Source: Diphasiastrum complanatum (taxonomy: Eukaryota; Streptophyta; Lycopodiopsida; Lycopodiales; Lycopodiaceae). Taken from it: a stretch of DNA of 64,000 nucleotides. Location of the stretch: the NCBI GenBank assembly GCA_029204225.1, contig CM055095.1, forward strand, positions 15,840,049 through 15,904,048, given 5' to 3'. How positions within the stretch are numbered: position 1 is the stretch's first letter; each line of letters opens with the position of its first letter. A program made the position numbers and the translations under genes. The notes beneath the pieces were generated by a model. That model had not been told where the DNA came from. It did not search any database and saw only the letters and a list, made by a program, of their open reading frames with translations. Of this stretch, positions 18,674 to 55,920 are shown piece by piece.

Positions 18674-20433
<1,760 letters not shown>

Positions 20434-20835
20434 CTTGTATTCACACTATTGTGGCTTGGTAATGAAGTTGTTGTTGGACCGATCATAGGCTTTGACTTGG
20501 TTGAGTGGTTTGGCTCCATTGTCTCCTTTTGAGTGTTATGTAGGCTTGATCTCTAGGGATCATTTCATTGGCATCCATGAGTAACCATCCTTTGAATAAT
20601 TCATACTCACATTTAGAATCCATAGTCAAAGGATTTTTTTTGATAATATAAACACTAATAATTTTTCATGGAAATCATTTTGAAAGCCTCATTTGATTTA
20701 TCTTTACTAAGCCTAAGCAATGTGTTTATGAGTTTATCCGTAATATGTAAAATTCAAGTAAAGTTTTTTGGTGTTTGGCAAGGAGGATCTTGTAGCACTA
20801 GAGATTTTGCATGGAATGATTTAGGGCTTAGCGTT

Positions 20836-21380
20836 TGAGTGCATTTTTGACTAAGCTTATCTCACATTTGGTTTTGAACTATGCAGCTTTAACCACATCG
20901 GATTATAACGCATGTTACATTTGTGGACCGCTTTTGGAGGGTCGTCATAGCACAAATATGTTGAAAAAAGTGGTCTACAAAAATCATCGCAAATACTTGC
21001 CGCTTGATCATCCTTTTCAAAGGTTGAAGGGCAAAGATCCTTTAACTACACCACCACCCTCACACATGGGAGTAGTGGAATGGCATGGTGAATGGGTTAA
21101 ATATCATGATGTTAATTCTTCATGGAATGAATCCATTGATGGTATGAAACAGTTGTCTATTTTTCATAAATTACCCTGTTTAAAAAATTTATTGATAAAT
21201 CATCTATTGGATCCTATGCACATATTCAAAAACATAAGTGAATCACTATGGAACCACATCATTGGCATAAAAGACAACTCCCCAGCTCGTAAAGATCTAC
21301 AAGCGGCCGACATGAAAAGACCCTATTGGATTCAATACACTGAAGGTGTAGATTGTTGGAAAGAGGGGTGTGAAGAAAGA
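20836..21380 (+). pseudogene. CACTA (En/Spm) tnp2-type transposase fragment
   Basis: The frame reads NACYICGPLLEGRHS, HRKYLPLDHPFQRLKGKD, LSIFHKLPCLKNLLINHLLD, DPMHIFKNISESLWNHIIG and ARKDLQAADMKRPYW. This follows the order of tnp2 transposases (Transposase_21), whose hallmark is LDVMHIxKNxxxxLL. These proteins cut and paste CACTA elements. Only the central part remains; the end runs into lysine-rich repeat sequence after 21370. No CACTA terminal repeats were found nearby. Confidence 0.75.
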
Positions 21381-21559
21381 AAACTAAAAAAAAAAACAAA
21401 CACGAAAACGAAGCAAACTCGAAACTCGAAAAAGAAATAAACTCGAACGAAAATTGTTCGTGCGTAGCGGAATAAGCTATCTCACTCTTTTCTTAAGCAT
21501 GACTACGCCTATCAGACTCGAACAAAACATAAGTGATAGAAATCACGTTCGATCTGATT

Positions 21560-33608: not shown

Positions 33609-34100
33609 CTATGTACCAAACCACATTCTTAATAATAAACATTGAAGTAGTGGCATAAAAAAGGTAGCACACCATGTGCTATATTTTTGTTGAATCATGA
33701 CAAGAAAGAAACTCGCAAAAAATTTACTCACAAAATGCCAAGGCCCTAATACAACCAGATTGGCTTTTGGAGAAACGGGAATGAAGAAAAGAGAAAACCC
33801 TTCTAGCAATAGCTTTCACTACAATTTTCTAGGAAGTATTGAGCATTGTGAGCGACCGGAAATCAAAAAGCATGAAATAAACATTGTTTTGGGGATCGGT
33901 TTAATGAGGCCCTTCGAAAATGAGGAAGGGAAAGAATCCAAAACACATAGTTAATGGCAAGAAGGAGAGCAGGATTGACCAAATCTCATTGTGCTAGGAA
34001 AAAGTCAGAGGTGACCCCGTCAGAGCCATAGACTTTATCTCTATGAAGGGTTTTAAGCACATCCAGCTCTTCTTGGGAAAGAGGAGAAGAAATGAAAGTT
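33609..34100 (-). pseudogene. LINE reverse-transcriptase fragment
   Basis: The minus strand from 34095 reads SPLSQEELDVLKTLHRDKVY, GSDGVTSDFF and, after frame changes, FFIPVSPKANLVVLGPWHF and VSKFFASFF. This follows the order of plant LINE reverse transcriptase (E-x-x-x-x-LxxxxxDKxPGPDGxxxxFF, then IPKxxNP...RPIxL..I.SK). The conserved APGPDG is VYGSDG here. The fragment stops exactly where the element C LTR begins (34101), so C sits against it. Confidence 0.6.
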
Positions 34101-34654
34101 TGATTCTATGGCAAAAACACACTACTACATGCATTCAATCACTTTCAACTCTCACTCACACGTGTGGGAAGTATTAAAAAAGTATTCTAAGTAAAAACAA
34201 GCTGCTCTCCTAGGGTAGAGAGAGAAAATCATCATGAGCTCTCGAGTAGAGAGAGAAAGCTAAAAATCCAATAACACTCAAAATCCACTCAATCTCCAAA
34301 TCAATTAGATCCAAATGAGGAGTACAATGATACTAGTAGATCCACGAGCTATATTGTATTGGACCATTTTCAAGCAAACCTCAAATTCCTATTGGACCTC
34401 ACATGGTTCCACCTCTAAATCCTATTGGACCTCTTAGAACTCATCAAACAAAAGCATTACACTTGTCTACACTCTAATTGGCACGAGTTTAGCCTCTTAC
34501 TCTATTTTGGCTCAATAGTGGCATTACAAGTGGAAATGCATAATTTGTCATCTATGCCAAATTTGTTCCTATCAACATCCTACACCTAGATGCTTGATAT
34601 AAAAAACATAAGACCCCTATATCTAACATAGATAATCTTTTTCAATTCTTCACA
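34101..34654 (-). mobile_element. Copia element C: 3' LTR, truncated
   Basis: This matches 39532-40085 almost base for base over 554 bp; I counted about five substitutions by eye. In element orientation it starts TGTGAAGAATTG at 34654 directly after the polypurine tract (TTTTTTAGGAGGAG). The complete LTR is 658 bp (39428-40085), so this copy lacks the terminal 104 bp and its CA end. Confidence 0.9.
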
Positions 34655-34672
34655 CTCCTCCTAAAAAACTAT

Positions 34673-35332
34673 CTATGAAGATTTAAGTATTGATCTTGAT
34701 ATAACTCCAAGATTAGATCTATGCTTGATGAAAGCACTTTTGCTCAAAGGCTTGGTGAGTAGATCGGCAATACAAGAGGACGAGTTGACATGCTCCAAAT
34801 AGATTTCTCTTCCAATAAGCTTTTCTCTCACAAAATGGTGTGCCACTTCTATGTGCTTGCTTCTTGCATGAAATACGGGATTATTGGCAAGAGCTTGGGC
34901 CGAGATGTTATCACACTTGATCATTGGTAGATCATCTTCCTTGATGCACTTTAGCTCCATTAATAACCTCTTGATCCAAAGCACCTCTTTGGTAGTTGTA
35001 GTGAGTGCTTTGTACTCGGCCTCACATGAAGAGAGAGATATAGTATCTTGCTTTTTGGAAAGCCAAGATATTAGATTGCCTCCAAGAAAGATAGTTTATG
35101 CACTAATAGACTTTCGATCCATCTTGTCACCCATCTTGTCACTTGCAAAGTCCGAATCCGAGTAGCCAACAATGGATAGATCTTCACTTTGATAAAGTAG
35201 ACCATAATCACAAGATGAAGATACATATCTTAGAATCCTCTTGGCCATCTTCCAATGATGGATCTTAGGATCTTGCATAAAGTGACTCAATTTGTGCACA
35301 CAAAAACTTAGACCGGTCCTAGTAATGGTAAG
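34673..35332 (-). pseudogene. Copia element C: RNase H region
   Basis: Continuing the polyprotein past a TAG at 35333, the minus strand reads GLSFCVHKLSHFMQDPKIHH, LRYVSSSCDYGLLY and SDSDFASDK, then a TAG near 35095, then SLSSCEAEYKALTTTTKEVL, IKCDNISAQALANNP and ADLLTKPLSKSAF. These are the end of the reverse-transcriptase domain and RNase H. The frame is otherwise continuous: only nonsense codons interrupt it. A short DKMGDKM duplication is present near 35130. Confidence 0.85.
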
Positions 35333-37768
35333 CTAAATGAAGGAGCCTACAAGACTCCTAAAAAGTGTGATGTCCTCAAAGGATCTTTCATCACCTTTAT
35401 TAGGATCTTTTACAATTTGCTCCATTGGAGTATTTAGGCTCTTAGAATTTTCCATATGAAATTTTTTCAACATAGAGTGAGCATATCTAGATTGGCATAT
35501 AAAGACATGATCTTCATAAAAATCAATTTCTAGGCCTAGGATGTAATGTATCTCTCCTAGATCTTGCATTTTAAACTCACATCCAAGTGCTAGCTTAACT
35601 TCATCAACTAGCTTGATACAACTTCCACAAAGAATAATGTCATCAACATAAATTAGAAGAATGACAATAATGCTATTAATAAACTTTAGATACATGTAAG
35701 GATCATAGTCACTAAGAGTAAATCCTAGTGAGATAAGAAAAGCATTAAGTCTTGAATACCATGATCTTGGTGCTTGCTTGAGTCCATAAAGACTTTTGAA
35801 GAGCAAGCACACTTTGGACTCATCCTTGATGAATCCTTGAGGTTGTTCCATATAGATCTCCTCCTCAAGATAACCATTTAGAAAAGCATTGGATACATCT
35901 AATTGGAACACCTTCCACTTAAAGAAACAAGCAAGAGAAATAAGAATTCTTATTGTCACCATCTTTGCAACGGGTGCAAAGGTCTCCTCATAATCAAGGC
36001 CATGGATTTGAGCAAATCCTTTGGCACATAATCTTGCTTTATACTTGTTGATGGTGCCATCATGATTGAACTTGATTTGAAATACCCACTTGCAACCAAT
36101 CACATGCTTGTTGGATGGAGGATCCACAAGCTCCCAAGTATTGTTGGTGATCAATGCATCATACTCTTGCTTCATGGCATCATACCACTCCTTGGTATTG
36201 AATGTCTCTTGTACATTCTTTGGCTCTTCATGAGAGACATAAAAAACATAATTAGTGGAATCAAGATCCACTTGTTTGCCTTTGTCAACATATGAGAGCC
36301 TCTTAGGCTCGGATCTATCTCTCATGGATCTTCTTGGTGAGAAAATCCAAGGAGAGTCTTCTTCCATTCTCGACCCCATCACATCATAATTGTCTTCAAA
36401 ATCAATAATAGGTGATGCATCCATAGACTTCTTGATCTCAACCTCTTCAAAAGATGAGTGTTGATCTTCATGAAAGACAACATCTCTACTTTCAATAACT
36501 TGAGAAGTAGAGAGTACAAAGACTCGATAGGCCTTCTTGGTGGATGAGTATCCAACCATGATCCCTTTGCATGCACTAGGATCTTCCTTCTTCCTTGTTT
36601 CCAAGGGAATATGGGCAAAGCATATGCATCCAAAAACTCTAAGGTGATCAACCTTAGGCTTCTTCAAATATAAGATTTCATATGGTGACTTTCCTCCAAG
36701 AGCTATATGTGGGAGCCTATTGCAAAGATAATTTGCACAATTAATGGCTTCTCCCCAAAAATATTTGGGCAAAGATGCCTCAATTCTCATAGATTTTGCA
36801 CATTCACATAGAGATCTATTCTTTCTCTCGGCCACTCTATTCTGAGATGGAGAGTAGGCACAAGAGAACTCTCTTTTGATGCATTCAAGCTCACAAAAAT
36901 AATCAAATTCATTGGAGATATATTCAGCACCTCCATCACATCTAAGAGCTTTAATCTTGAATGAGAATCGCTTCTCTACATAAGCTTTAAAAATAAGGAA
37001 ATGATCAAACACCATAGATTTAGAAGCAAGAAGATATATCCAAGTGAATCTTGTGAAATCATCAATGAAAGTAACAAAACAAGTGGCTCCTCCCTTCCTT
37101 ATAGTTGATGAGAAATGCACATCCGAGTGGATTAACTCCAAAGGATGCTTGCTTTTGATAGAAGATCTTGTAAATGGCTTTTTGTGAGATTTAGCAATAG
37201 CACAAGCCTCACAAGGCTTGATCTTCTTGGAGAATGACTTTGTCAAGCCAATAGCTTTGGCCTCTTTGATCATAGAGAGCATGGATTTGTAGTTGGGATA
37301 TCCCAACCTCCTATGCCATAATTCCTCCATAGAGAGCTTGTTCACAAGAGCAACATTACAAGCATTCACATACTCATTTGGATCTAGTTTATAGATGCCT
37401 CCAAATCTAGATCCTAATGCAAGTATCTCATCATTCTTCTTGATAGTGCAAGTATCAACATTGAATTTTACATCAAGGCCATTATCAAGCAATTGGCCAA
37501 CACTAATGAGATTCTTAGTAAGCTTAGGTACATAGAGAACTTTAGAGAGAGAAAGAACTTTAGAGGATGCAAGCTTCAAGGGAATGTTCCCTATGCCTTC
37601 AATAGGACATTCAAAATCATTTGCAGTGTATGTTGATTTCTTGACTCCATCATAAGGTGCAATAGAAGAGAAAGAGTCCTTGGAGCTACACATATGTGAA
37701 GAGGCTCCACTATCAATATACCATAGGCCGTCCTTCTTGAAAGGAGTAGATGAGAAACTAGAGACCAT
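35333..37768 (-). pseudogene. Copia element C: protease, integrase and reverse transcriptase
   Basis: An 811-codon open stretch contains the aspartic protease site WYIDSGASSHM (about residue 16), the GAG-pre-integrase LWHRRLGYPN and CEACAIAKSHKK, an rve core with HSDVHF, LRCDGGAEY and RVAERKNRSL giving D,D,E, and RVT_2 with AFLNGYLEEEIYMEQPQGF, LYGLKQAPRSWY and catalytic IYVDDIIL. It ends at a TAG within LVGSFI. The integrase, reverse transcriptase and protease motifs look intact, but stops upstream and downstream prevent a full polyprotein. It acts, if at all, in cytoplasmic virus-like particles and the nucleus. Confidence 0.92.
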
Positions 37769-38725
37769 AAGAGATCCCTCTCCTTCACTTGCAATAGTGT
37801 CTTCCTTTTCATTGGTATTGTTGGCTTGCTTGAGTTGATTCTTCTTCTTGAAGCAATTGGTGGCATAATGGCCTTTCTTGCCACAATAAAAGCACTTGAT
37901 CTTCTTCTTCTTGAGCTTGGATGATGAAGCATTAAAGGAATCATATTCCTCCTCATCTTTGTCTTTGGATTTGGCTTTGTCCTTGCTTGAGGATTGTTGT
38001 TATTGGTTCTTGCTCCTCCCTTTGTGCTTGTCCTTGGCAAAGAGGGCTTTGCCATCATTATGAGTGAGAGAAAGCTTGTCCATCCTCAAGAGCTTGTACT
38101 CTTGTCTTGATTCTTCTGAAATTAGCACACTTTGGAGAGCCTCCAAACTTGGTAGCTCCTCCTTAATGGCATAGGATTGGACAAGGTTATCAAATTCACT
38201 TCTCAAGCCATTGAGAATGACTTGGACTAGCTCATTTTGATTGATGGAATCACCAATACAAGCAAGTTCTCTATGAATATCTTTTACTCTCAAAATATAA
38301 CTAGATGCACTCTCATCACTCTTTTGGCTACTTTGAAAGATTTGATTCCTAAGAGTGAGAAGCCTAGAGGTATTCTTAGCCTCATAGATAGTCTTGAGAC
38401 AATCCCAAGCTTCTTTGGCTGTTGTACAAGTACCTATCTCCCTCAATATCTCATTAGAGACATTCATCTCAATGTAGTGGAGAGCCATCCTAGCTCTCTT
38501 TTTGTATTTTTGAACCTCTTGAAGAACTTAAGGTTCTTCTTCAAGGCCAAGAACTATGTCCATCACGTCTTGAAGGATCAAGATGGACTCCATCCTCATC
38601 TTCCAAATTGAATAGTTTGAAGTGGACAATCTTTCACTTGGTTCCAACAAGGATGAACCCATTGAAGACATTTGAAGTGAAGAAAACTCAAATGATGAAC
38701 AATAAATGTTGCTAGACACTCCCAA
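37769..38725 (-). pseudogene. Copia element C: gag
   Basis: The frame begins MGVSSNIYCSSFEFSSLQ or at an internal Met (MSSMGSSLL), reads STSNYSIWKMRMESILILQD, then a TAA near 38528. It resumes with ALHYIEMNVSNEILREIGTC, EAWDCLKTIYEAKNTSRL and KSDESASSYILRVKDIHREL (UBN2 gag), meets a TAA at about 38000 and ends with the zinc knuckle CFYCGKKGHYATNC (CX2CX4HX4C). Gag packages the element RNA. Both interruptions are single nonsense codons. Confidence 0.88.
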
Positions 38726-39414
38726 TAGGATCCAATAATGGAGTACTATCTCCTCCTATGAAAGATCTTGCAACTATTTGTGAATTGATTCTCGCTAGCT
38801 ACACAAATCTCTCTAAAACAAGATCTATTTCACATCAAATGATGGAGTGTGGGCAAAGTTAGGATCAAACACTCTTAGCACGTGTGAAGTACACTAAGAA
38901 CCCAATTTTGACTCAAATACAATGATATTGCATGAAACAAAATGGCTAAGATCTCAAAACAGTGCCTAGATCACATATAGATGAGATTGGTAAGCATTCA
39001 ACCGTGATTTTGGATCAACCAAGAAATCTCTTGACCAAAACAAATGTGTCCACCCAGGTCTAGGTGCCCTACCTAACCCTCTTCAAAAGCTTATAACTTT
39101 TGATTGGCTCAACCAAATGGAATGAAACTGATTCCATAAAAAACTAGACAAAAATAGCTTCAAAACAAGCTATCAAGCAAGATAAATGGATCAAGCATGA
39201 GAGAGAACTTCCAAACTGAAGTTGGATGTTCCTCACACATGTCTGAGAATCTGATTCCATACAGTACTAGGTCAGACCAAATCAATGTCCTTTTGAACTC
39301 TTTTGATCCACAATTGGACAAGATAGCTAGGAAAATGGATCGTGACCATTTCTAGCTCAAGATTGATGAATAATTTTCACTTAAATGGATCAAAATGCAT
39401 GGTAACCTTAGGTA
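38726..39414 (-). other. Copia element C: 5' leader
   Basis: Untranslated stretch between the primer-binding site and gag. It contains no notable ORF. Confidence 0.7.
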
Positions 39415-39427
39415 GGCTCTGATACCA
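39415..39427 (-). other. Copia element C: tRNA-Met primer-binding site
   Basis: On the minus strand this reads TGGTATCAGAGCC, the complement of the 3' end of initiator tRNA-Met. It directly abuts the 5' LTR and fixes the LTR end at 39428. Confidence 0.92.
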
Positions 39428-40085
39428 TGTTGATTTCACACATGTGGACTATCCACAACATGTACTTGTGATCTCCTAAGGTGTGTAGATGCACCCAGAT
39501 CAAGACTAGACTGAGATTCAAGATCTATCTTTGATTCTATGGCAAAAACACACTACTACATGCATTCAATCACTTTCAACTCTCACTCACACGTGTGGGA
39601 AGTATTAAAAAATTATTCTAAGTAAAAACAAGCTGCTCTCCTAGGGTAGAGAGAGAAAATCATCATGAGCTCTCGGGTAGCGAGAGAAAGCTAGAAATCC
39701 AATAACACTCAAAATCCACTCAATCTCCAAATCAATTAGATCCAAATGAGGAGTACAATGATACTAGTAGATCCACGAGCTATATTGTATTGGACCATTT
39801 TCAAGCAAACCTCAAATTCCTATTGGACCTCACATGGTTCCACCTCTAAATCCTATTGGACCTCTTAGAACTCATCAAACAAAAGCATTACACTTGTCTA
39901 CACTCTAATTGGCACGAGTTTAGCCTCTTACTCTATTTTGGCTCAATAGTGGCATTACAAGTGGAAATGCATAATTTGCCATCTATGCCAAATTTGTTCC
40001 TATCAACATCCTACACCTAGATGCTTGATATAAAAAACATAAGACCCCTATATCTAACATAGATAATCTTTTTCAATTCTTCACA
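39428..40085 (-). mobile_element. Copia element C: 5' LTR, complete
   Basis: The element reads on the minus strand, so the LTR runs from 40085 (TGTGAAGAATTG) to 39428 (ATCAACA), bounded by TG and CA as in canonical copia LTRs. It contains repeated CCTATTGGACC strings and a CACACGTGTG palindrome. The base run after 40085 (GTACG) has no partner at 34096-34100 (AAGTT), so no target duplication is visible. Confidence 0.9.
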
Positions 40086-40918: not shown

Positions 40919-41194
40919 AGTTAGAATTAAAGTTAGAATCACTGTGTTACTATACTGTAGGTCCTATCAGTGGATAAGGATTAGTTGGCCTCGCCACGAG
41001 GCAAGTCGACGGGACACGCATCCCACCAATGGCAACCTGGGTCATACATGGGTTGCCTGAGTGAACAACTATATGTACAGCGTAATTTCATTTTGAGAAA
41101 TACAGTTGCTATGTGAGCTTGCTGAGAAGAGTGATTTTCTGTCTGTGTTACTGTGTAGCATGATCTGTGTTCCTGTGCAAAGCAAATTCTAAGT
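40919..41194 (+). mobile_element. Copia element D: 5' LTR
   Basis: 276 bp, matching 46679-46954 with 15 differences, mostly transitions. The ends are AGTTAGAATT and AATTCTAAGT, an imperfect inverted repeat, rather than TG and CA. It carries a perfect hairpin GCCTCG-CCA-CGAGGC at 40989-41003. Downstream is the primer-binding site. Confidence 0.9.
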
Positions 41195-41207
41195 TGGTAT
41201 CAGAGCC
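41195..41207 (+). other. Copia element D: tRNA-Met primer-binding site
   Basis: TGGTATCAGAGCC lies immediately after the 5' LTR. Confidence 0.93.
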
Positions 41208-42494
41208 GTACAGGGAGTGTACACAGTACAGTGTTGCCGTTGAAGAGAGCTTCGGGAGAACTGTCTTATGAGAGTTCGGGGTTTTATGGCGGGTTGAAGA
41301 ACGAAAGAGAAGCACTGGTGCACGGTTTCTAATATATAGAGCTTGCTAAGCTCAGCAAAGAGATTATTAGCCTGTGCATAGCATCAGACAGGGAAAAATT
41401 TGGTGAAAAATTGACAATTTTGAAGCCAGCTGAAAATTGAAACCGGACTTGGAGTTACGGTTTTTATACATAACTGGTGATTTCTTCGCTGTTTGTGCAC
41501 CATTTTGGATGCCCAAGAAGGAAGCTAATCACACTGTCAATCAGCCATGGAGAGATTTTGAGGTTTATGTCAGAGATTTGTCTCCAGACAGTTAACCTAG
41601 CAGATTTGCAGTAAAAAGGTGAAAAAAGCCACTTTGTCAAGTTGAGCTAAAATCACCGTTTCTCGACGGAATTTCTTGACTGAATACTCTATAGTCATGG
41701 ATTTAGTAGGGCGACCCTGCTCCAGGCCTCAGATCGTGCTCAAAACGATCCACAGGAGAGCTTGATCTGATGTTTTTGAGAGAAGGGAGGTGCGGTCGCA
41801 GGCAGGGAAGTCGCGGGTAGTTCACGCACCCAACGCGATAAAGAACTTAGTGTACCGAAGTTCTTAGCGTATGCAGGAGTTTGGTTCGATGCCCAGATGT
41901 ACTTTGAACCTTTAGATGAGGTGTCAAGTGAATCAACGGTCCAGAATCTGTGATGGGAGAGAAATTTGAACCACAAGATTTGGTTCAGCCATTGGATGAG
42001 CTTTAAATAGGGTCTTGAAGAATTGAAGTGCATTCTGGCCTTCAACTTCATTAAAAATTTTCATACTGAAAGTTGAGTCCCTTCACAAGTGAAGAGTGAA
42101 GTTTCTTCAAAGTGAAGAAACAGTTCAAAAGCTAGAAAAGTCCCTATTTTTGGGTCCTTTGCCCGTTTTGACCCAAACGAAAGGCTATAACCTCCAAACG
42201 AAGGGTACCCGGACTGTACCTGCAAGTACGGTACAGCAAAACAGAGCGGTTGCAGCGGATAAAGTGTTCGGAGTACGCCAGAAGTAGTTTCACCATTCCA
42301 CTGGGCACGTTGTTGGAAATTGACGACTGAGTGCATTTTGGAAGGCGACGCCGATTTAGCTTTCAAATTGGTGGAAAAGCGGCGAGTGGCCTGGTAAGAA
42401 AAAAAGTGCAGGTCATTATTTTCAACTTCTGACATCACTGTTGGCCTCGACATACTGTTCTTAGCCTAAGGCAGAAGTTTTAAGCAGTTTTGCG
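41208..42494 (+). other. Copia element D: long 5' leader
   Basis: Nearly 1.3 kb separates the primer-binding site from gag, which is long for a copia element. No plus-strand coding frame is convincing here; I could not assign a function. Confidence 0.6.
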
Positions 42495-43330
42495 ATGGCA
42501 AACATGGGAGAGTCCATTTTGAGTGAAAGTAGCAAATTGGACGAGATTTCCAACTATGCAGTGTGGAAATTCAAAATGAAAAACATACTGATGGAGAAAG
42601 ATGTGTGGGAAGTCATCACAGGTGATGAGAGAAGGCCGCCAAATGAAGCAGACATCAAAATGTTCGACAAAAAGATGAGGAAAGCTTTGACCTTCATTAA
42701 CGTGTCAGTGAAGGATCACATCATTACCCACATTTGTGATGCTATTACACCCAGACAGGCATGGGATGTGCTAAAGAAGCAGTTCGAGACGTCAAATCCG
42801 TCAAGAATCATGTTTCTGAAGTCAAAGTTGAATAGTGCCCGCATGGAGCAAGGAGAGCACATTCAGACGTACATGACCTAAATCAAGACAATGAGAGATG
42901 AACTGCATTCTATTGGAGAATGCATACGTGATGTGGAGCTGGTGCATAATGCATTATGCGGCATTGCAGAACCCTATCAGATGTTTGTGAGCGGAATAGC
43001 ATCAAGAGAAAGATTGCCAACCTTTGACGAGCTCACAGGAATCTTGATGCAGGAAGAGCAACGACGAGAAATGGTGAAAGCTAGACGTCAAAATACTGAT
43101 GATCAGGCACTTGCGACACGCCAAAAACAAGGCAAGGGCAAGGGCAAGAAGAAGACTAAACAGCAATTTGCCAAGTCTCAGGAGGATGAGGGATCTTTCA
43201 GCAAAACTAAGAAGAAAGGCAAGTGCTTCCATTGTGGTAAAAAGGGCCACTAGAAGAGTGAGTGTCGCAAATTCCTGGCGGAACAAGACAAGGGAAAACC
43301 AAAACAAGCAGGTAACCTTGTCGATGAGGG
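42495..43330 (+). pseudogene. Copia element D: gag
   Basis: ATG 42495 opens MANMGESILSESSKLDEISN and YAVWKFKMKNILMEKDVWEV, followed by DVLKKQFETSNPSRIMFLKS of the UBN2 domain. A TAA at about 42879 breaks the frame (AAA to TAA is the simplest origin). It continues MRDELHSIGECIRDVELVHN, and the zinc knuckle CFHCGKKGH is followed by TAG in place of the expected residue, then KSEC. The reading frame is otherwise continuous into the protease. Confidence 0.9.
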
Positions 43331-43364
43331 TGAGATTAAAGACTCTAGCATCTTCATATCTGCA

Positions 43365-46118
43365 TTGTCATCCAATCAAGATGATCAAGCATGGTATATT
43401 GACTCAGGAGCCACAAGACACATGACAGGTAACAAGAACTGGCTCAGTAGTTTGAAGGCATTGGATAATGGAACATCTATTTCACAAGCAAATGGTGAGG
43501 TGTGCATGATCAAGGGGATAGACACAATTTCAATCCAACTGCCTGACGACAAAAGCAGGATGATTAGGGAGGTACTTTACGTACCAGGTTTGAAGAAAAA
43601 TCTACTTTCTGTTGGAGTTATTACTGATCAAAAGTTGAAAGTAGAATTCGCCCATGATCGTTGCTTTGTGAAGGATGCGAACCAAAAGTTCAAAGTTATT
43701 GCGAATGGAGTAAGAGAGCCCAATACAAAATTGTACAGGTTGAATGCCACAATCAAGGGGCAACATGGACTTGTGTCATCCGTTCCTTCGCAAACTGAGT
43801 TGTGGCACAAGAGGCTTGGTCACTTGAACTTGGGAAGCCTCAGTTTGATGAGAAAATTGGAGATGGTAACAGGACTGCCTACAATAGAAAATCACCTGAA
43901 ATCGATGTGCGAATCTTGTATATATGGGAAGCAGCATCGAGAGAAGTTCAATAAAGGGGGTGTTGCAAGAGCAAAGAACATCCTGGATTTAATCCACAAA
44001 GATTTATGCGGGCCCATGAGGACCATGTCCTTAGGAAAAGACTTCTATTTCATGACCTTTATTCATGATATGTCACGTAAGACGTGGATCTACTTCTTGA
44101 AGAAGAAATCAGATGCTTTTGATAACTTCAAGAACTTCAAAAACTTGGTCAAAAATCAGACAGGTAAGAAGATCAAAGTCCTAAGATCAGATAGTGGAGG
44201 TGAGTATAAGTCTAATGACTTCAATGATCTTTGTGATCAATGTGCGATTAAAAGACAATTTACGCAAGCTCATACTCCTGCTCTCAATGGTGTAGCTGAG
44301 CGCAAAAATTGTACGATTGTGGAAAGTGCCAGATCTATGCTAGCTGAGATGAAATTACCAAAAGATTTTTGGTCAGAAGCATGTAGCACGGCAGTCTATC
44401 TTCAAAATAGAAGTCCTACCATTGCCATACCAAAAATTACACCTGAGGAAGCATTCACAAAGAAGAAGCCAAAGGTGAACCACTTGCGAATCTTTGGATG
44501 TAAGGCCTTTGTACATATTCCTAAGGAAGAAAGACGTAAACTTGATGTAAAAGCTATCAAGTGCATATTCCTAGGATATGATGATCGCGTGAAAGGCTAT
44601 AGATGTTTTGATCCAGTCGAAAACAAAATCCATATAAGCCGAGATGTTATCTTTGATGAATCCAAGATGTATGAAGACGAAGATGCTGAGAAGATAGACA
44701 CATCCAGTAGGAAAAATGGCATAGTGAGGATACCACCTGATGATGATCCATTCATTGACCTTCTGAGTGATGAACATGAGGATACATCTCAAGATACTAC
44801 TACTCAACCTCAAGAAACAGGTTGGAGAGGTAGGGACAAACCTCTTGGTGCAAGAAGGATTGAAATTGCAGGTGACAAACGCAAGGAGAAGGATGTATCG
44901 TGGGATACATTTTCACCAGGAAGCCGATCACAGCTTCCTAAGTGGTTTGAGAGATTGATGGAGAGCCGCGATATAGATGACTTTCCAAGATCATCTAACC
45001 AGGGAGAGCTACGAAGATCAACAAGAGAGAAGATACTACCTGAAAGGTATGAAACAAATTATGCTCTGTTATCCAGCATTATTCAAAGCAAAGAACCTTC
45101 GACTTATAGTGAAGCGAAGGATGATGACATTTGGATCAAGGCCATGGGAGAGGAGATGGAGTCAATTGCTAAGCATAGCACATGGGACTTAGTAGAACCA
45201 CCAGTTGGCAAGAAATCCATTGGTTGCAAATGGGTATATAGAACTAAGTACCATGCAGATGGAAGCATAGCAAAGCACAAAGCAAGATTGGTAATAAAAG
45301 GGTACGCACAAAATAAAGGCATTGACTATGAGGAGACCTTTGCGCCGGTGTGTAAGTGGAATACTCTACGTCTACTTATTGCTTTAGCTTCACATTTTGG
45401 TTGGCCTTTGCATCAGATGGATGTGAAATCTGCTTTTCTAAATGGTGAGTTAGAAGAAGAAGTGTTCATGGATCAACTTGAAGGCTTTGTAACGAAAGGA
45501 CAGGAAAATAAAGTATGTCGCTTGAAGAAAGCGCTTTATGGTCTTAAACAAGCACCACGTGCGTGGTATAGCAAGAGTGATGCCTACTTTCGTTCAAAGG
45601 GGATGGTGAGAACACATTCTGATCCAAATCTATATGTTTTATGCTTTGATGGTATGGTTGCTTTGATTGCTCTTTATGTTGATGACTTGATTATTACGGG
45701 AAATAATCAAGAGATGATAGACATAATCAAGAAAGACCTCATGGAACAATTTGAGATGACGGATCTCAGCCTGATGCATTACTGCCTTGGAGTAGAAGTG
45801 TGGCAAAAAGGACATGAAGTGGGTTTAACACAAGTGAAATATGTCAAAGAGTTACTACACAGGTTTAGGTTGCAGGATTGCAAACCAGTAAACACTCCTA
45901 TTGAACCAGGTAAAAAGCTTTCTAAGCTTGATGAATCACAGTCATTTGATGCTACGCTATATAGACAGTTAGTAGGGAGCTTGATTTACCTTACCACAAC
46001 TAGACCAAATATATGCTATGTTGTTGGCATTGTAAGTCAGTTTATGGCAGCACCTACGAAAACGCATTGGAAAGCAGCTAAACGCATTTTGCGTTATGTG
46101 AAAGGCACTTCAAAGTAA
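43365..46118 (+). pseudogene. Copia element D: protease, integrase and reverse transcriptase
   Basis: A 917-codon open stretch. In order: protease site WYIDSGATRHMTG (about residue 10), GAG-pre-integrase ELWHKRLGHLN and CESCIYGKQH, rve core with LIHKDLCGP, LRSDSGGEY and NGVAERKNCT (D,D,E), and RVT_2 with AFLNGELEEEVFMDQLEGF, LYGLKQAPRAWYSK and catalytic LYVDDLII. It ends at TAA after LRYVKGTSK. Frame is intact across all three enzymes, although the element is flanked by nonsense codons in gag and before RNase H. Confidence 0.93.
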
Positions 46119-46625
46119 GGCTTGATTTACAGGAAGCATGATGGTTTACCTGAGTTGTGTGGCTATGTCAATGCGGACTGGGGAGGTGACTATGATGATC
46201 ATAGATCCACCACAGGATACATATTCCAGTTTTGTGGTAATTGCTTTTCTTGGTCTAGTAAGAAGCAAAGTACAATTGCTCTTTCCACCACAGAAGCTGA
46301 GTATAAGACAATGTGTAGTGCTGCACAAGAAGCTATATGGTTGAGACAAATCTTGGAAGAGATTGGCATGAAACAGAAAAATCCCACAACTTTACATAGC
46401 GATAGTCAGAGTGGCATTCAGCTAGCAAAGAATCTAGTGTTCCATGCGAGAACTAAACATATTGAGATTCAATATCACTTCATACGTGAAAGGCTGCTAA
46501 GTCGTGAAATTCATGTTGTTCATTGTAGCACAGAAGAACAACTAGCTGATATTTTCACTAAGCCACTTACTGGAGAAAAGTTTGATAAGTTTAGATCAAA
46601 ACTTTCTGTATTCAAATTTTGTTGA
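46119..46625 (+). pseudogene. Copia element D: RNase H
   Basis: Directly after the TAA at 46116-46118 the same frame reads GLIYRKHDGLPELCGYVNAD, STTGYIFQFCGNCFSWSSKK, ALSTTEAEYKTM and LHSDSQSGIQLAKNL, ending LADIFTKPLTGEKFDKFRSK. These are copia RNase H signatures. It would be made only by read-through of the single stop. The TAA sits where most relatives have a residue before GLxY. Confidence 0.9.
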
Positions 46626-46678
46626 CTTTAAAGCTATGTATATGACTATATAAAAAGTGACTCTACTTTAAGGGAGAG

Positions 46679-46954
46679 AGTTACAATTAAAGTTAGAATC
46701 ACTGTGTTACTGTACTGTGGGTCCTATTAGTGGATAAGGATCAGTTGGCCTCGCCACGAGGCAAGTCGACGGGACACACGTCCCGTCAATGGCAACCTGG
46801 GTCATGCATGGGTTGCCTGAGTGAACAACTATATGTACAGTGTAATTTCATTTTGAGAAATATAGTTGCTATGTGAGCTTGCTGAGAAGAGTGTTTTTCT
46901 GTCTGTGTTACTATGTAGCATGATCTGTGTTCTTGTGCAAAGCAAATTCTAAGT
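46679..46954 (+). mobile_element. Copia element D: 3' LTR
   Basis: Preceded by the polypurine tract AAGGGAGAG (46670-46678) and followed by the right-hand target duplication GTGCT (46955-46959). It has the same length as the 5' LTR. The 15 differences out of 276 mean this element is several times older than element C by LTR divergence. Confidence 0.92.
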
Positions 46955-48464: not shown

Positions 48465-50936
48465 TCAGTCCTTAGAAGAGGCTTCGAATGCCTCATCGTC
48501 AACAAATACGCATCTCTTAGATGCTCTCCGTCCCAAATGACTGGAATGCTTGTCATTTAGCTGCTCCATTGACCTGGCCAAGGATTCTGCATAGCAAGGC
48601 AAAGCGCTACATCAAATGTAATTTGTTGAGAATCTCAAAAAGAAAATACATGCTAAAGAGCAAGAGCAAAAACCCACTTACTGTTGACCTGGAGAGCCAA
48701 TTTCGTATACTCTCGAATCCAACTCAGGGACAGTTGTGTCCTCATCCACAATGCATTTGGTCATTGTCTAACACTGCAAAAACAAATACGAGAATTAGAA
48801 ATTTGGAGACATAAAAAGAATGCACTTTCTATAAGTATGGATGATAAAACAAATAGTCACAAAATACATTACCTCTATTTGTTTTTAACCATGCCTCGTC
48901 ATTGTCCATGCCAAACAGATGGACACTCGCCATGCGTGTAGCCAACATTGAGGTCCTAGTGCGAATCATGAAGTCGACAATAATACCACCTTCTGGGCAA
49001 AATGCAGACATAAGAAAGAACATGAAGTACTCACTTTTTTCGGTGCTACCTCTTAATGGCTTGTCTGTCAAAATCAATGCATTATCTGGCGAAGCCTCCA
49101 AGACACTGACCGACCACCGATTCCACGTGGATTTGCTACCAACTACACCATCACACAAATATCCAGTCGACAAATCTATGATCACCAAATCAGCCTCGTA
49201 AGTAGTGACCTTGCCCTTTACTCTCTGTAATGTGCATCTTCTTTCTATGAACTGTCTCATCGTATGATATTCCAAACTATTTTTCCCATTTGCACATGCA
49301 TCCCGAATGGAATTCACATATGCACTTGTTCAAGACTTGATGGGCAATGCATCAACCTTCACAAACTTGTACTCTACTATTCTTCTGTTCACGGGAGTAT
49401 AGGATACAACCACCTAAAGAACCGAAATCCATTACACAAAAATGGCGCATCAAAGGAACAAATTGAAGAACAGTTATGTAAGTTACGGGATTCCATTGAT
49501 AAAAAATGTAGTTATGATCACCTCCTCCTCCTCTGGTTCATGTGGCACCTTTTTCTTGCCCTTGTTAATCGGAAAAATGTTGAGATTCTCTGGAACATTG
49601 GCAAGAACAGATTGTGATGCCATCTCTATGGCCATTGCCTCTCCACCCTCCTCATGCCATTGATATTGTGAAATCTCAGAAGGAGGGCATTCACCTTCTT
49701 TAAAATCAATCCACCAGGGACAGTACTTAACCTCCCACTGACTCATGCCATCTTTCCTATCCAAATTCGCCCTCTTGGAGTACATAGTGACTTCAAGTTT
49801 TATGGAAAGCTGATTCCACATCTCCATGAATGAAGGCTTTTCTTTAAGAATTTTCTTGACTTTCAGATGGAACAGATACCTAGCAATACAAGTATGTGAT
49901 TTTGAAGTAGGAGCTTATGATATTACAAAATCAAAAAGAAGTATGTGTTTCCGATTGAAAATGCAACACGTAGAATGATTACCTCCAAGTAACGCGTTTA
50001 GCTGCAAGTTTGACCTCCTGCTTTGTTTCAATTGAGAGTTGAGGCTCTATCAAGGAAGATAATGAAAAGAATAAGAAGTCACGATAGCATAGCTTTAGAG
50101 AAGCGAAGTATTTTGGAAAAGAGTCCGCATCACTTGAATCAAAGCCTGCATTTTTCATTTATTTGATTTGACATAAAAAAAACATAGTGGAAGGTAACAA
50201 GCCAGACAAAAAACTTTACTTTCAAGTTATTGCATACCTCCATATCCCTCACACAACTCAAAAATCTTCTGGGCCTCTATTTGCAAGGCTTCATAGAATA
50301 CTTCTTTCCCCACCCAAGCTTGAAAGAGCTTATCACCAATGGGAATAGAAAATTGGTCTCCAGCAACTGCACCACCAAGGCACATCGTCAACCATTGGCA
50401 CCTCTTCTCATTAGAAACATCTGAAAGTCTCAGGGTGTTCAACTTTTCCAAACCCATTGAGAATCCTTTCTCGTCAAGATGATCTTGGGAGAAAAGATTA
50501 CAGGCAAGAACAGAACTTTTAAAGACATATTGTTGTCGAACGGTCCACCAGAAAGTAGAGTATCTATTTCCATGTTGCGGAAAAGTCTTGACAATGGAAA
50601 CATGCAAAGTAAGCAAAGCTATAAAAAGGAGGCTTACTTTGATGAGCTTTCCTATGAAAGCTTACCTATCGAGAATTCAGTCCTCAACACTCAAGTATGG
50701 AGTACCCCTATGGAATTGGGACAGAATTAGCATAGCAAAATTTTAACTCACGGCTCACTTAAAGCGAATTGGAGGACGAAATTATAGAGCACCTGTTTTA
50801 TTACTGTAGCAAGGTGCTCTAGATAGAGTTTGTGCACCTCCTTCGCCATTGGGGATTCACCTTCACTCTTGGGCTTGATACCATGTTGTTGGGCGGCTCT
50901 CATGTCACAAATCACTCTTCTCTGAGTTTTTGTCAT
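48465..50936 (-). CDS. Unrecognised spliced gene with degenerate DNA-methyltransferase-like segment
   Basis: Minus-strand exons, with matching codon phases for the first four joins read: 50936-50793 (MTKTQRRVICDMRAAQQHGI), about 50616-50238 (CQWLTMCLGGAVAGDQF), 50145-49983 (FPKYFASLKLCYRDFLF), 49879-49522 (KPSFMEMWNQLSIKLE, acidic end), 49413-48873, about 48773-48682, and 48586-48465 (SLARSMEQLNDKHSSHLG; stop TGA 48465-48467). The fifth exon reads EADLVIIDLSTGY then GGIIVDFMIRTRTS and HLFGMDND. Order and spacing resemble beta-class N4/N6 DNA methyltransferases (DPPY motif, then DPFxGxGTT), but both motifs are degenerate. One TGA interrupts that exon at 49330-49332, and the last joins do not keep frame. 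Perhaps a recently decayed gene; the link to 50616 and beyond is not proven. I do not recognise a named family. Confidence 0.5.
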
Positions 50937-52179: not shown

Positions 52180-52831
52180 ACTTACCATGCTGGCTTGCAA
52201 GCCCGCTTTTTCGCTCTGGCCCCAACCTAGGATTGCCCATTCCATGCATCCTAGCGGCCGCGACATCTCTTTGAATCTTTTACTTATTTGGTTTTCGTTC
52301 ATCGGCTTTCACAGTGTTCCAATCTGCCCTTGAACACTAGGAGGGTTTTGATTGCCCATCTCTATATGCTCGTCATACTGTATCACGACGATGTCTAATC
52401 CATAAACTCATATGTTTATAGATTTCCTTCGTCTCGAATTCCTCATCTTGTGGGAATTCGTTACGAAGGCTACCAACAACCTGCCGTTCTAGATCGCCAG
52501 ATTGGTCGGACCATTTCATGAACAATCTGTCGCCAAAATGGCGTTGGCATAAAGAATATAAGCGGTCCATAACTACCCGACCTTTGCGGTTGGCGATTAT
52601 GTTACCTTCAGGATCCACGTCGTAATACAGATTAGTGGATGACTCTTCGATAGGTGCGAGATCCGCGGCCGCTTGTGAGAGACCTGAACCCTCATCTTGA
52701 CAAAGCAAGCTTTGCAATTGTGCTTTTTGCTTGGAAGATAACGATGCATAGAAATTTGAGACATAGCCTCCCGAGCTCTCACCACTGCCAAATCCTAACA
52801 TGTTTTCTACATTCATAAACATACAAAACAT
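52180..52831 (-). CDS. Unrecognised minus-strand ORF, possible upstream exons of the 48-51 kb gene
   Basis: From 52831 the strand reads MNVENMLGFGSGESSGGYVS, SLSSKQKAQLQSLLCQDEGS, ANRKGRVVMDRLYSLCQRHF and GDLERQVVGSLRNEFPQDEE, ending HMSLWIRHRRDT. The order of a Gly/Ser-rich start, a charged core with HF-D-x-x-F and a basic WIRHRR end is reminiscent of transposon-borne N-terminal domains, but I cannot name it. After a frame change it goes on to EIHMGNQ-like text and, past a TGA, ISKRFKEMSRPLGCMEWAIL, ending at a GTAAGT donor near 52195. A decayed first part of the same gene is one reading. Confidence 0.4.

Positions 52832-53864
<1,033 letters not shown>

Positions 53865-55058: not shown

Positions 55059-55920
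<862 letters not shown>

Follow-up and report, generated by a model that had tools for sequence, protein, structure and literature searches.

The locus analysed here raised the question of whether a gene on the minus strand of a 64,000-nucleotide stretch of the Diphasiastrum complanatum genome (the window) belongs, or once belonged, to the beta class of DNA methyltransferases. The earlier note had read positions 48465–50936 as a spliced gene with a degenerate signature of this class, and the letters on which it relied were confirmed: the exon 49413-48873 encodes the peptides EADLVIIDLSTGY, GGIIVDFMIRTRTS and HLFGMDND in one frame, the joins 50238/50145, 49983/49879 and 49522/49413 have gt..ag boundaries and keep phase, and the TGA at 49330-49332 is real. 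The features of the window copy are given below, with L numbers denoting related copies.

50238–50586, minus strand: exon E2 (TFPQHGNRY...LCEGYG), a conserved region with an in-phase gt..ag join and 54-86% identical pieces in relatives
49983–50145, minus strand: exon E3, with an in-phase gt..ag join, recurring in relatives
49522–49879, minus strand: exon E4, with an acidic EEEE tract at its end and an in-phase gt..ag join, recurring in relatives
49072–49413, minus strand: remains of the motif-IV exon up to a deletion scar, from comparison with relatives
49330–49332, minus strand: in-frame TGA stop within the exon 49413-48873
49159–49176, minus strand: motif IV remnant DLSTGY (DLP[TSL]GY or similar in most relatives, DLSTGY also in L197)
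49071–49072, minus strand: deletion scar, where L197 has a further 423 bp and L198 a further 408 bp
48873–49071, minus strand: remains of the exon with the TxK-like motif and motif I (STEKSEYF...FGMDNDEAW), from the profile match and relatives
48949–48975, minus strand: motif I remnant DFMIRTRTS
48683–48773, minus strand: C-terminal exon 1, lacking 11 bases present in L197 and L198, with the frame broken if the usual splice sites are used
48465–48586, minus strand: C-terminal exon 2, ending in ...SSKD and a stop, the stop at 48465 being common to L197
47633–48102, minus strand: 3' flank beyond the gene, common to L197 at 82% identity

Because the 3' flank is common to L197, the repeated unit reaches past the gene. 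The strongest support for the gene structure comes from the conservation of the exons as separate blocks in relatives. Codon scores were mixed, with the expected frame being the best sense frame in six of seven pieces (the seventh, labelled C2, was scored with its register shifted by one base). For E3 an antisense frame scored higher (0.183 vs. 0.140), and the score of 0.076 for the exon 49413-48873 did not stand out from those of random 540-bp windows (95th percentile 0.154). Two points of the gene structure needed correction. The join 48873/48773 is out of frame in the window copy because 11 bases of L197 and L198 are absent from it, although splice sites of a less usual kind could keep the frame there. 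For the exon that a start at 50936 would place first (MTKTQRRV...), none of the 20 relatives fetched for exon comparison gave a match (E up to 0.01). The five introns downstream of 50586 had a G+C content of 27-36%, the supposed first intron 39% and the pooled exons 42%. No Pfam match was obtained for E2 (reading frame 50227-50661).

Several other features were recorded in the window. The minus-strand region 52200-52870 contains a frame of 165 amino acids (52373-52870) and its continuation with stops (GSGESSGGYVSNFYASL...); it has no Pfam match, pieces 71-85% identical to it are located near L192 (8095-8276, opposite strand), and it may be a second repeat gene. Two retroelements, Copia-like as judged by eye and with long frames between their direct end repeats, were identified at 34099-40085 (repeats of 556 bp, 99.1% identical) and at 40919-46954 (276 bp, 94.6%), the latter ending about 1.5 kb from the methyltransferase gene. 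A CACTA-type transposase remnant was detected at 20832-21440 (Transposase_21/tnp2, E 5.8e-4, below the cut-off); like the size of the assembly and repeats of plant type recognised by eye, it points to a plant genome. Several near-perfect inverted copies of ACGTCAGAATCTGACGT are clustered at 55517-55675 and 55821-55841, and CT-repeat tracts at 19588-20431 are broken by identical unique blocks with periods of 204 and 244 and 100% matches.

To compare the window copy alone with known enzymes, the exon 49413-48873 was searched against curated libraries, and no match was found in Pfam (0 families at E up to 10), PHROGs or PDB, with one meaningless match in NCBIfam. Methyltransferase profiles were then used, of which the first were built from E. 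coli YhdJ and viral relatives. A homemade HMMER profile matched the exon at E 2.3, with one of 500 shuffles scoring higher and one tied. In hhalign comparisons with a 19-sequence profile the exon was outscored by 1 of 400 shuffles and by none of 103 other reading frames of the window, and by none of 400 shuffles under another match-column setting. The second profile comprised 70 other viral enzymes, collected separately by a DNA pattern for DPFxGSGTT. Against this 70-member beta-class profile the exon scored 35.5, a value reached by none of 400 shuffles and by three of 165 pieces of E. coli proteins, two from YhdJ and one from PrmA, both of which are methyltransferases. The matched span aligned STEKSEYF...DFMIRTRTS...FGMDND with PTxKP...DPFxGSGTT...GIE. 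The front half of the exon did no better than shuffles, as 37, 26 and 15 of 150 reached its score. Read by itself, the window copy would thus back just half of the methyltransferase claim.

Structure models of the window exon added little. The first, a single-sequence AlphaFold model, was useless (pLDDT 42.8) and its Foldseek search returned nothing informative. For the second model the first 12 matches were beta-class structures (no E as low as 0.001, the best being 0.013), which is weak and biased evidence because the alignment behind this model was made of beta-class methyltransferases. The earlier note had placed the two motifs about 60 residues apart, a spacing that beta-class enzymes do not have: both motifs were present in 71 of 86 beta-class frames, and in these 71 they are at least 124 residues apart (124-306); in the first sequence set both were present in 37 of 51 sequences, at a distance of at least 135 residues. 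A motif IV at the start of the exon (SYTPVN), suggested by a MAFFT alignment, was ruled out, since the relatives place DLPxGY at the position of DLSTGY.

The relatives were identified by a search of the 1,744,706,496-base assembly with the window exon, in which the best 150 of 576 candidates were scored. The 150 matches listed for the motif-I exon represent at least 138 places more than 2 kb apart. A total of 120 of these places are on the 23 largest contigs (C1-C23), each of which has a match. Many copies carry stops, and many others are still open frames. Close relatives sought in other genome contigs and in viral contigs were not found. In the relatives, the sequence corresponding to the window exon 49413-48873 falls into two parts with several hundred bases between them, and in copies keeping several exons E2, E3, E4, both halves of E5 and the C-terminal exons follow in the same order. 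The exon complement is incomplete in some copies, and L197 has E2-E4 inverted downstream.

The motifs are better preserved in these copies. Motif IV precedes motif I, which follows a TxK-like motif. An exact DLPxxY was present in 13 of 18 own-genome rows; of the other five, L192 has a deletion, L185 has an insertion, and L194, L197 and L198 read GLPSGY, DLSTGY and DLLTGY, respectively. At motif I, 14 of the 19 rows conform to D-[LF]-x-x-G-x-G-T, while L184, L188, L189, L194 and L197 depart from it. The copies L202-L204 form a second subfamily with roughly one-third identity to the first; their motif I is DPF[LM]GCG, and the motif IV of L202 and of L204 is DFPxxF. Among the relatives as a whole, motif I takes forms such as LDLHVGVGTS and VVDPFMGCGRS. 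The distance from motif IV to motif I was 130 residues in L190 and L201 and 140 in L191, all three being lower bounds as the end of the first exon was omitted, and the shorter values of 118 (L188), 119 (L189) and 106 (L197) come from rows that are themselves incomplete. The catalytic motif IV of beta-class enzymes follows the pattern [DNS]-P-P-[YFW]; this pattern was absent from every copy read, relatives having D[LF]Pxx[YF] in its place. DPPY and the motif-I glycines are indeed gone from the window copy, as the earlier note had stated, but the absence of DPPY is shared by the relatives and is not specific to the window.

The comparison with relatives also revealed how the window copy decayed. 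It is 84-91% identical to the close relative L197 over most blocks. Relative to L197, the deletion at 49072/49071 runs from the last part of the motif-IV exon through the intron into the beginning of the motif-I exon and has fused the two exons in frame, so that the apparent exon 49413-48873 consists of two; the 67 residues between motif IV and motif I in the window copy result from the same 423-bp loss. The 11 bases missing relative to L197 and L198 lie just inside the exon following 48873 and their loss breaks the C-terminal frame with the usual splice sites. At motif I, the first glycine is replaced by arginine in the window copy and not in L197 or L198, and the second is arginine both in the window copy and in L197. 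A search of the window with three pieces from the N-terminal part of L192 gave no match (E up to 1), though a much diverged N-terminus is possible there; the second of these pieces was found in L183, L187 and L195 and partly in L184. Judged from the TGA, the 423-bp deletion, the frame-breaking 11-bp deletion, the lack of recognisable N-terminal exons and the arginines at both motif-I glycines, the window copy is dead and is predicted to make no working protein.

The identity of the domain was settled by the motifs of the relatives and by the PF01555 score of L203. This single open frame matched PF01555 with 37.4 bits (E 3.4e-9; curated cut-off 26.7 bits) and was the only one of five relatives tested to pass the cut-off. 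L202 (20.8 bits) and the joined exons of L182, L184 and L191 (17.2-22.6 bits; E 5.1e-3, 1.2e-4 and 5.3e-4, respectively) were below it, still with PF01555 as the best match. The PF01555 search proposed in the earlier note thus gave no match for the window copy and one above the cut-off for its relative L203. Searched against PDB, L203 gave seven matches at E up to 1, all of them methyltransferases of the beta-class group (E below 1e-4 for two of them, at best 1.9e-5); the two titled just 'Methyltransferase' are M.BceJIV. The top three PHROGs families matched by L203 were DNA methyltransferases (best E 3.1e-12). In NCBIfam, the best match of L203 was CcrM, far below the cut-off, and that of joined L182 was PrmA.

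Profile-profile comparisons agreed with these searches. Ten relatives compared with the 70-member profile gave a probability of 95.9% (E 5.6e-9), which became 97.2% (E 3e-11) with the second subfamily included. Over all nine comparisons, made between three sets of relatives and three beta-class profiles, one of which (profile S) is a subset of another, the probability was 88.1-97.3% and E ranged from 3e-6 to 2.5e-11. The extended alignment placed YSADIIIVDLPxGY on VDAVVTDPPY, i.e., DLPxGY on DPPY. The beta-class assignment made in the earlier note is thus upheld by the second-profile test, the motifs kept in relatives, the L203 score above the PF01555 cut-off and the profile E of 2.5e-11, and with it the description of the locus as a spliced eukaryotic gene with a decayed domain of the permuted, N6_N4_Mtase type. 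For the rest of the protein, a PDB search with the middle region of relatives gave no match and their N-terminal region had no credible Pfam match. A ParB-like domain in the N-terminal region, suggested by the pattern GNHRxxA, was unsupported: its score of 15.2 compares with a mean of 12.1 for column shuffles (s.d. 2.2, maximum 19.9, n=120), the ParB profile consisting of only 10 sequences recognised by eye.

A resemblance by chance, in which a decayed gene of another family merely reads like beta-class motifs, is highly improbable. The window copy by itself would have allowed it, with no match in the curated libraries, an HMMER E of 2.3 and a front half behaving like shuffles. It is countered by the score of 35.5 against the second profile, by the L203 matches in PF01555, PDB and PHROGs and by the profile E of 2.5e-11, and it was ruled out on the second-profile test together with the profile comparisons of the relatives.

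The selective history of the family was examined by a simple pairwise dN/dS method applied to short exons. Among the pairs listed between the subfamilies, seven had a computable dS (1.1-2.6) and a dN/dS of 0.05-0.25: the five pairs compared over the first exon gave 0.12-0.25, and the two compared over the second gave 0.05-0.08. In six further pairs dS was saturated. Such low values in deep pairs suggest that the ancestral protein was probably used. The ratios were 0.62 and 0.85 for the close pair L184-L190 and 0.78 for L202-L203, and the medians of computable family pairs were 0.29 (56 pairs) and 0.28 (26 pairs). The first exon of the window copy gave 0.69 against L198 and 0.32 against L197, the latter being lower than expected of a long-dead copy. 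Overall, the pattern would fit source genes under selection whose copies decay.

Within the largest subgroup, most copies share 90-95% identity along stretches of up to about 5 kb, in which introns are as well conserved, while their flanks differ; other copies, e.g., L184, are about 70% identical. The retention of introns favours spread at the DNA level over retroposition. Element termini sought around the copies were not detected, there being no common ends, target-site duplications or transposase. The suggestion in the earlier note that the gene may be transposon-borne is supported as far as the dispersed high copy number goes, with no element ends found. The near-identical trio L205-L207 is part of a longer duplicated segment:

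C10:8728500-8755499, C7:44349200-44376199 and C1:92771800-92780799: duplicated segment (L205-L211), 97-99.8% identical

The segment carries a decayed family copy. A comparison of 9 kb of it among C1, C7 and C10 showed 99.8% identity, and between C7 and C10 more than 20 kb were 97-99.8% identical. The segment represents a recent duplication or assembly redundancy, and as it occurs on three chromosomes, part of the copy count may be due to either.

Taken together, the window locus is very probably a dead, truncated copy of a high-copy dispersed family, whose better-kept members encode a multi-exon protein with a C-terminal, permuted, beta-class PF01555-like domain of a SAM-dependent amino-methyltransferase. 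In the less decayed members, this predicted domain would run from motif IV (DLPxGY/DFPxxF) through the TxK-like motif to the SAM-binding motif I (DLHVGVGTS/DPFMGCGRS). We infer that it came from a bacterial or phage enzyme, and it may then have been joined to the long N-terminal region and have acquired introns, its spread being due to duplication, at the DNA level, of a unit measuring some 5 kb or more. The ancestral protein would have bound SAM and nucleic acid, and may have methylated an exocyclic amino group in DNA, perhaps in the repeat itself, or helped as a catalytically altered partner. A non-catalytic SAM-binding role appears nearly as likely as a catalytic one, since the copies read have another residue where DPPY has its aromatic one.

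How far this family was mobile and active can be weighed against several readings. It could be an ordinary host family of amino-methyltransferase genes, spread by segmental and tandem duplication and never mobile, with the window locus as one of its pseudogenes. The missing termini and transposase would agree with this, as would the copy lying in the 97-99.8% identical segment on C1, C7 and C10, the three copies inside 80 kb on C2 and the many frames still open. We nevertheless regard it as rather unlikely in view of the at least 138 places on all 23 largest contigs, many with stops, and of copies that are mostly 90-95% identical up to about 5 kb including introns, yet have different flanks. 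A plant element, mobile now or formerly, that brought its own bacterial-type amino-methyltransferase would be a more far-reaching and, as a complete scenario, an unlikely one: the enzyme would write 4mC or 6mA with the altered DLPxGY site, would have been kept by selection during spread to more than 100 loci, and would perhaps mark the DNA of the element to escape or tune host 5mC silencing.

Compatible with either a mobile or a non-mobile family is a catalytically dead protein that would act as a structural subunit or as one that binds SAM or nucleic acid, much as METTL14 is the non-catalytic partner of METTL3. This seems quite possible, if not the expected outcome. T, S, L or K occupies the catalytic aromatic position wherever motif IV is readable, motif I is kept in most rows and the deep dN/dS is low, all of which a subunit of this kind would explain; on the other side, the aromatic residue found two positions later in most copies could substitute for the lost one.

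The dispersed family to which the window copy very probably belongs has the same order of motif IV, TxK(P) and motif I as the PF01555 enzymes of bacteria and phages (YhdJ, CcrM, M1.HpyAVI and M.BceJIV), and shares with them the acidic residue after the strand following motif I. It differs in having D[LF]Pxx[YF] where these enzymes have [DNS]PP[YFW], in the motif I of its larger subfamily (DLHVGVGTS) and in its introns, high copy number and N-terminal region. The nearest described eukaryotic cases found were N4CMT of bdelloid rotifers and DN4MT1a/b of Marchantia. N4CMT is described as an intron-containing eukaryotic gene with a bacterial-type PF01555 domain and a chromodomain, occurring as an allelic pair and absent from other sequenced eukaryotes (PMC8885841). 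On this description, the two are alike in carrying a PF01555-type domain in an intron-bearing eukaryotic gene, and N4CMT is, unlike the family described here, not a dispersed repeat. MpDN4MT1a/b of M. polymorpha are described as two sperm-specific genes for 4mC methyltransferases, said to have been acquired from bacteria and reported to make 4mC (PMC8566409, PMC12344493). These are likewise bacterial-type enzymes in a plant, compared here by description only, and on that description the view in the earlier note that plants are not known for such enzymes was wrong. A search of mainly open-access literature found no account of a dispersed plant N6_N4_Mtase repeat family, and none of the papers using the term N6_N4_Mtase concerned a land-plant gene by its title.

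Bacterial-type amino-methyltransferases appear to be rare in eukaryotes, and a bacterial-type methylating domain in more than 100 scattered copies is unusual for a plant-like genome. Bdelloid N4CMT and Marchantia DN4MT1 have shifted views on the DNA marks of eukaryotes, and the presence of 4mC and 6mA in plants is disputed. With its conserved SAM motif, its changed catalytic motif and its low dN/dS, the dispersed family provides a concrete set of genes for testing whether plant repeats write 4mC or 6mA.
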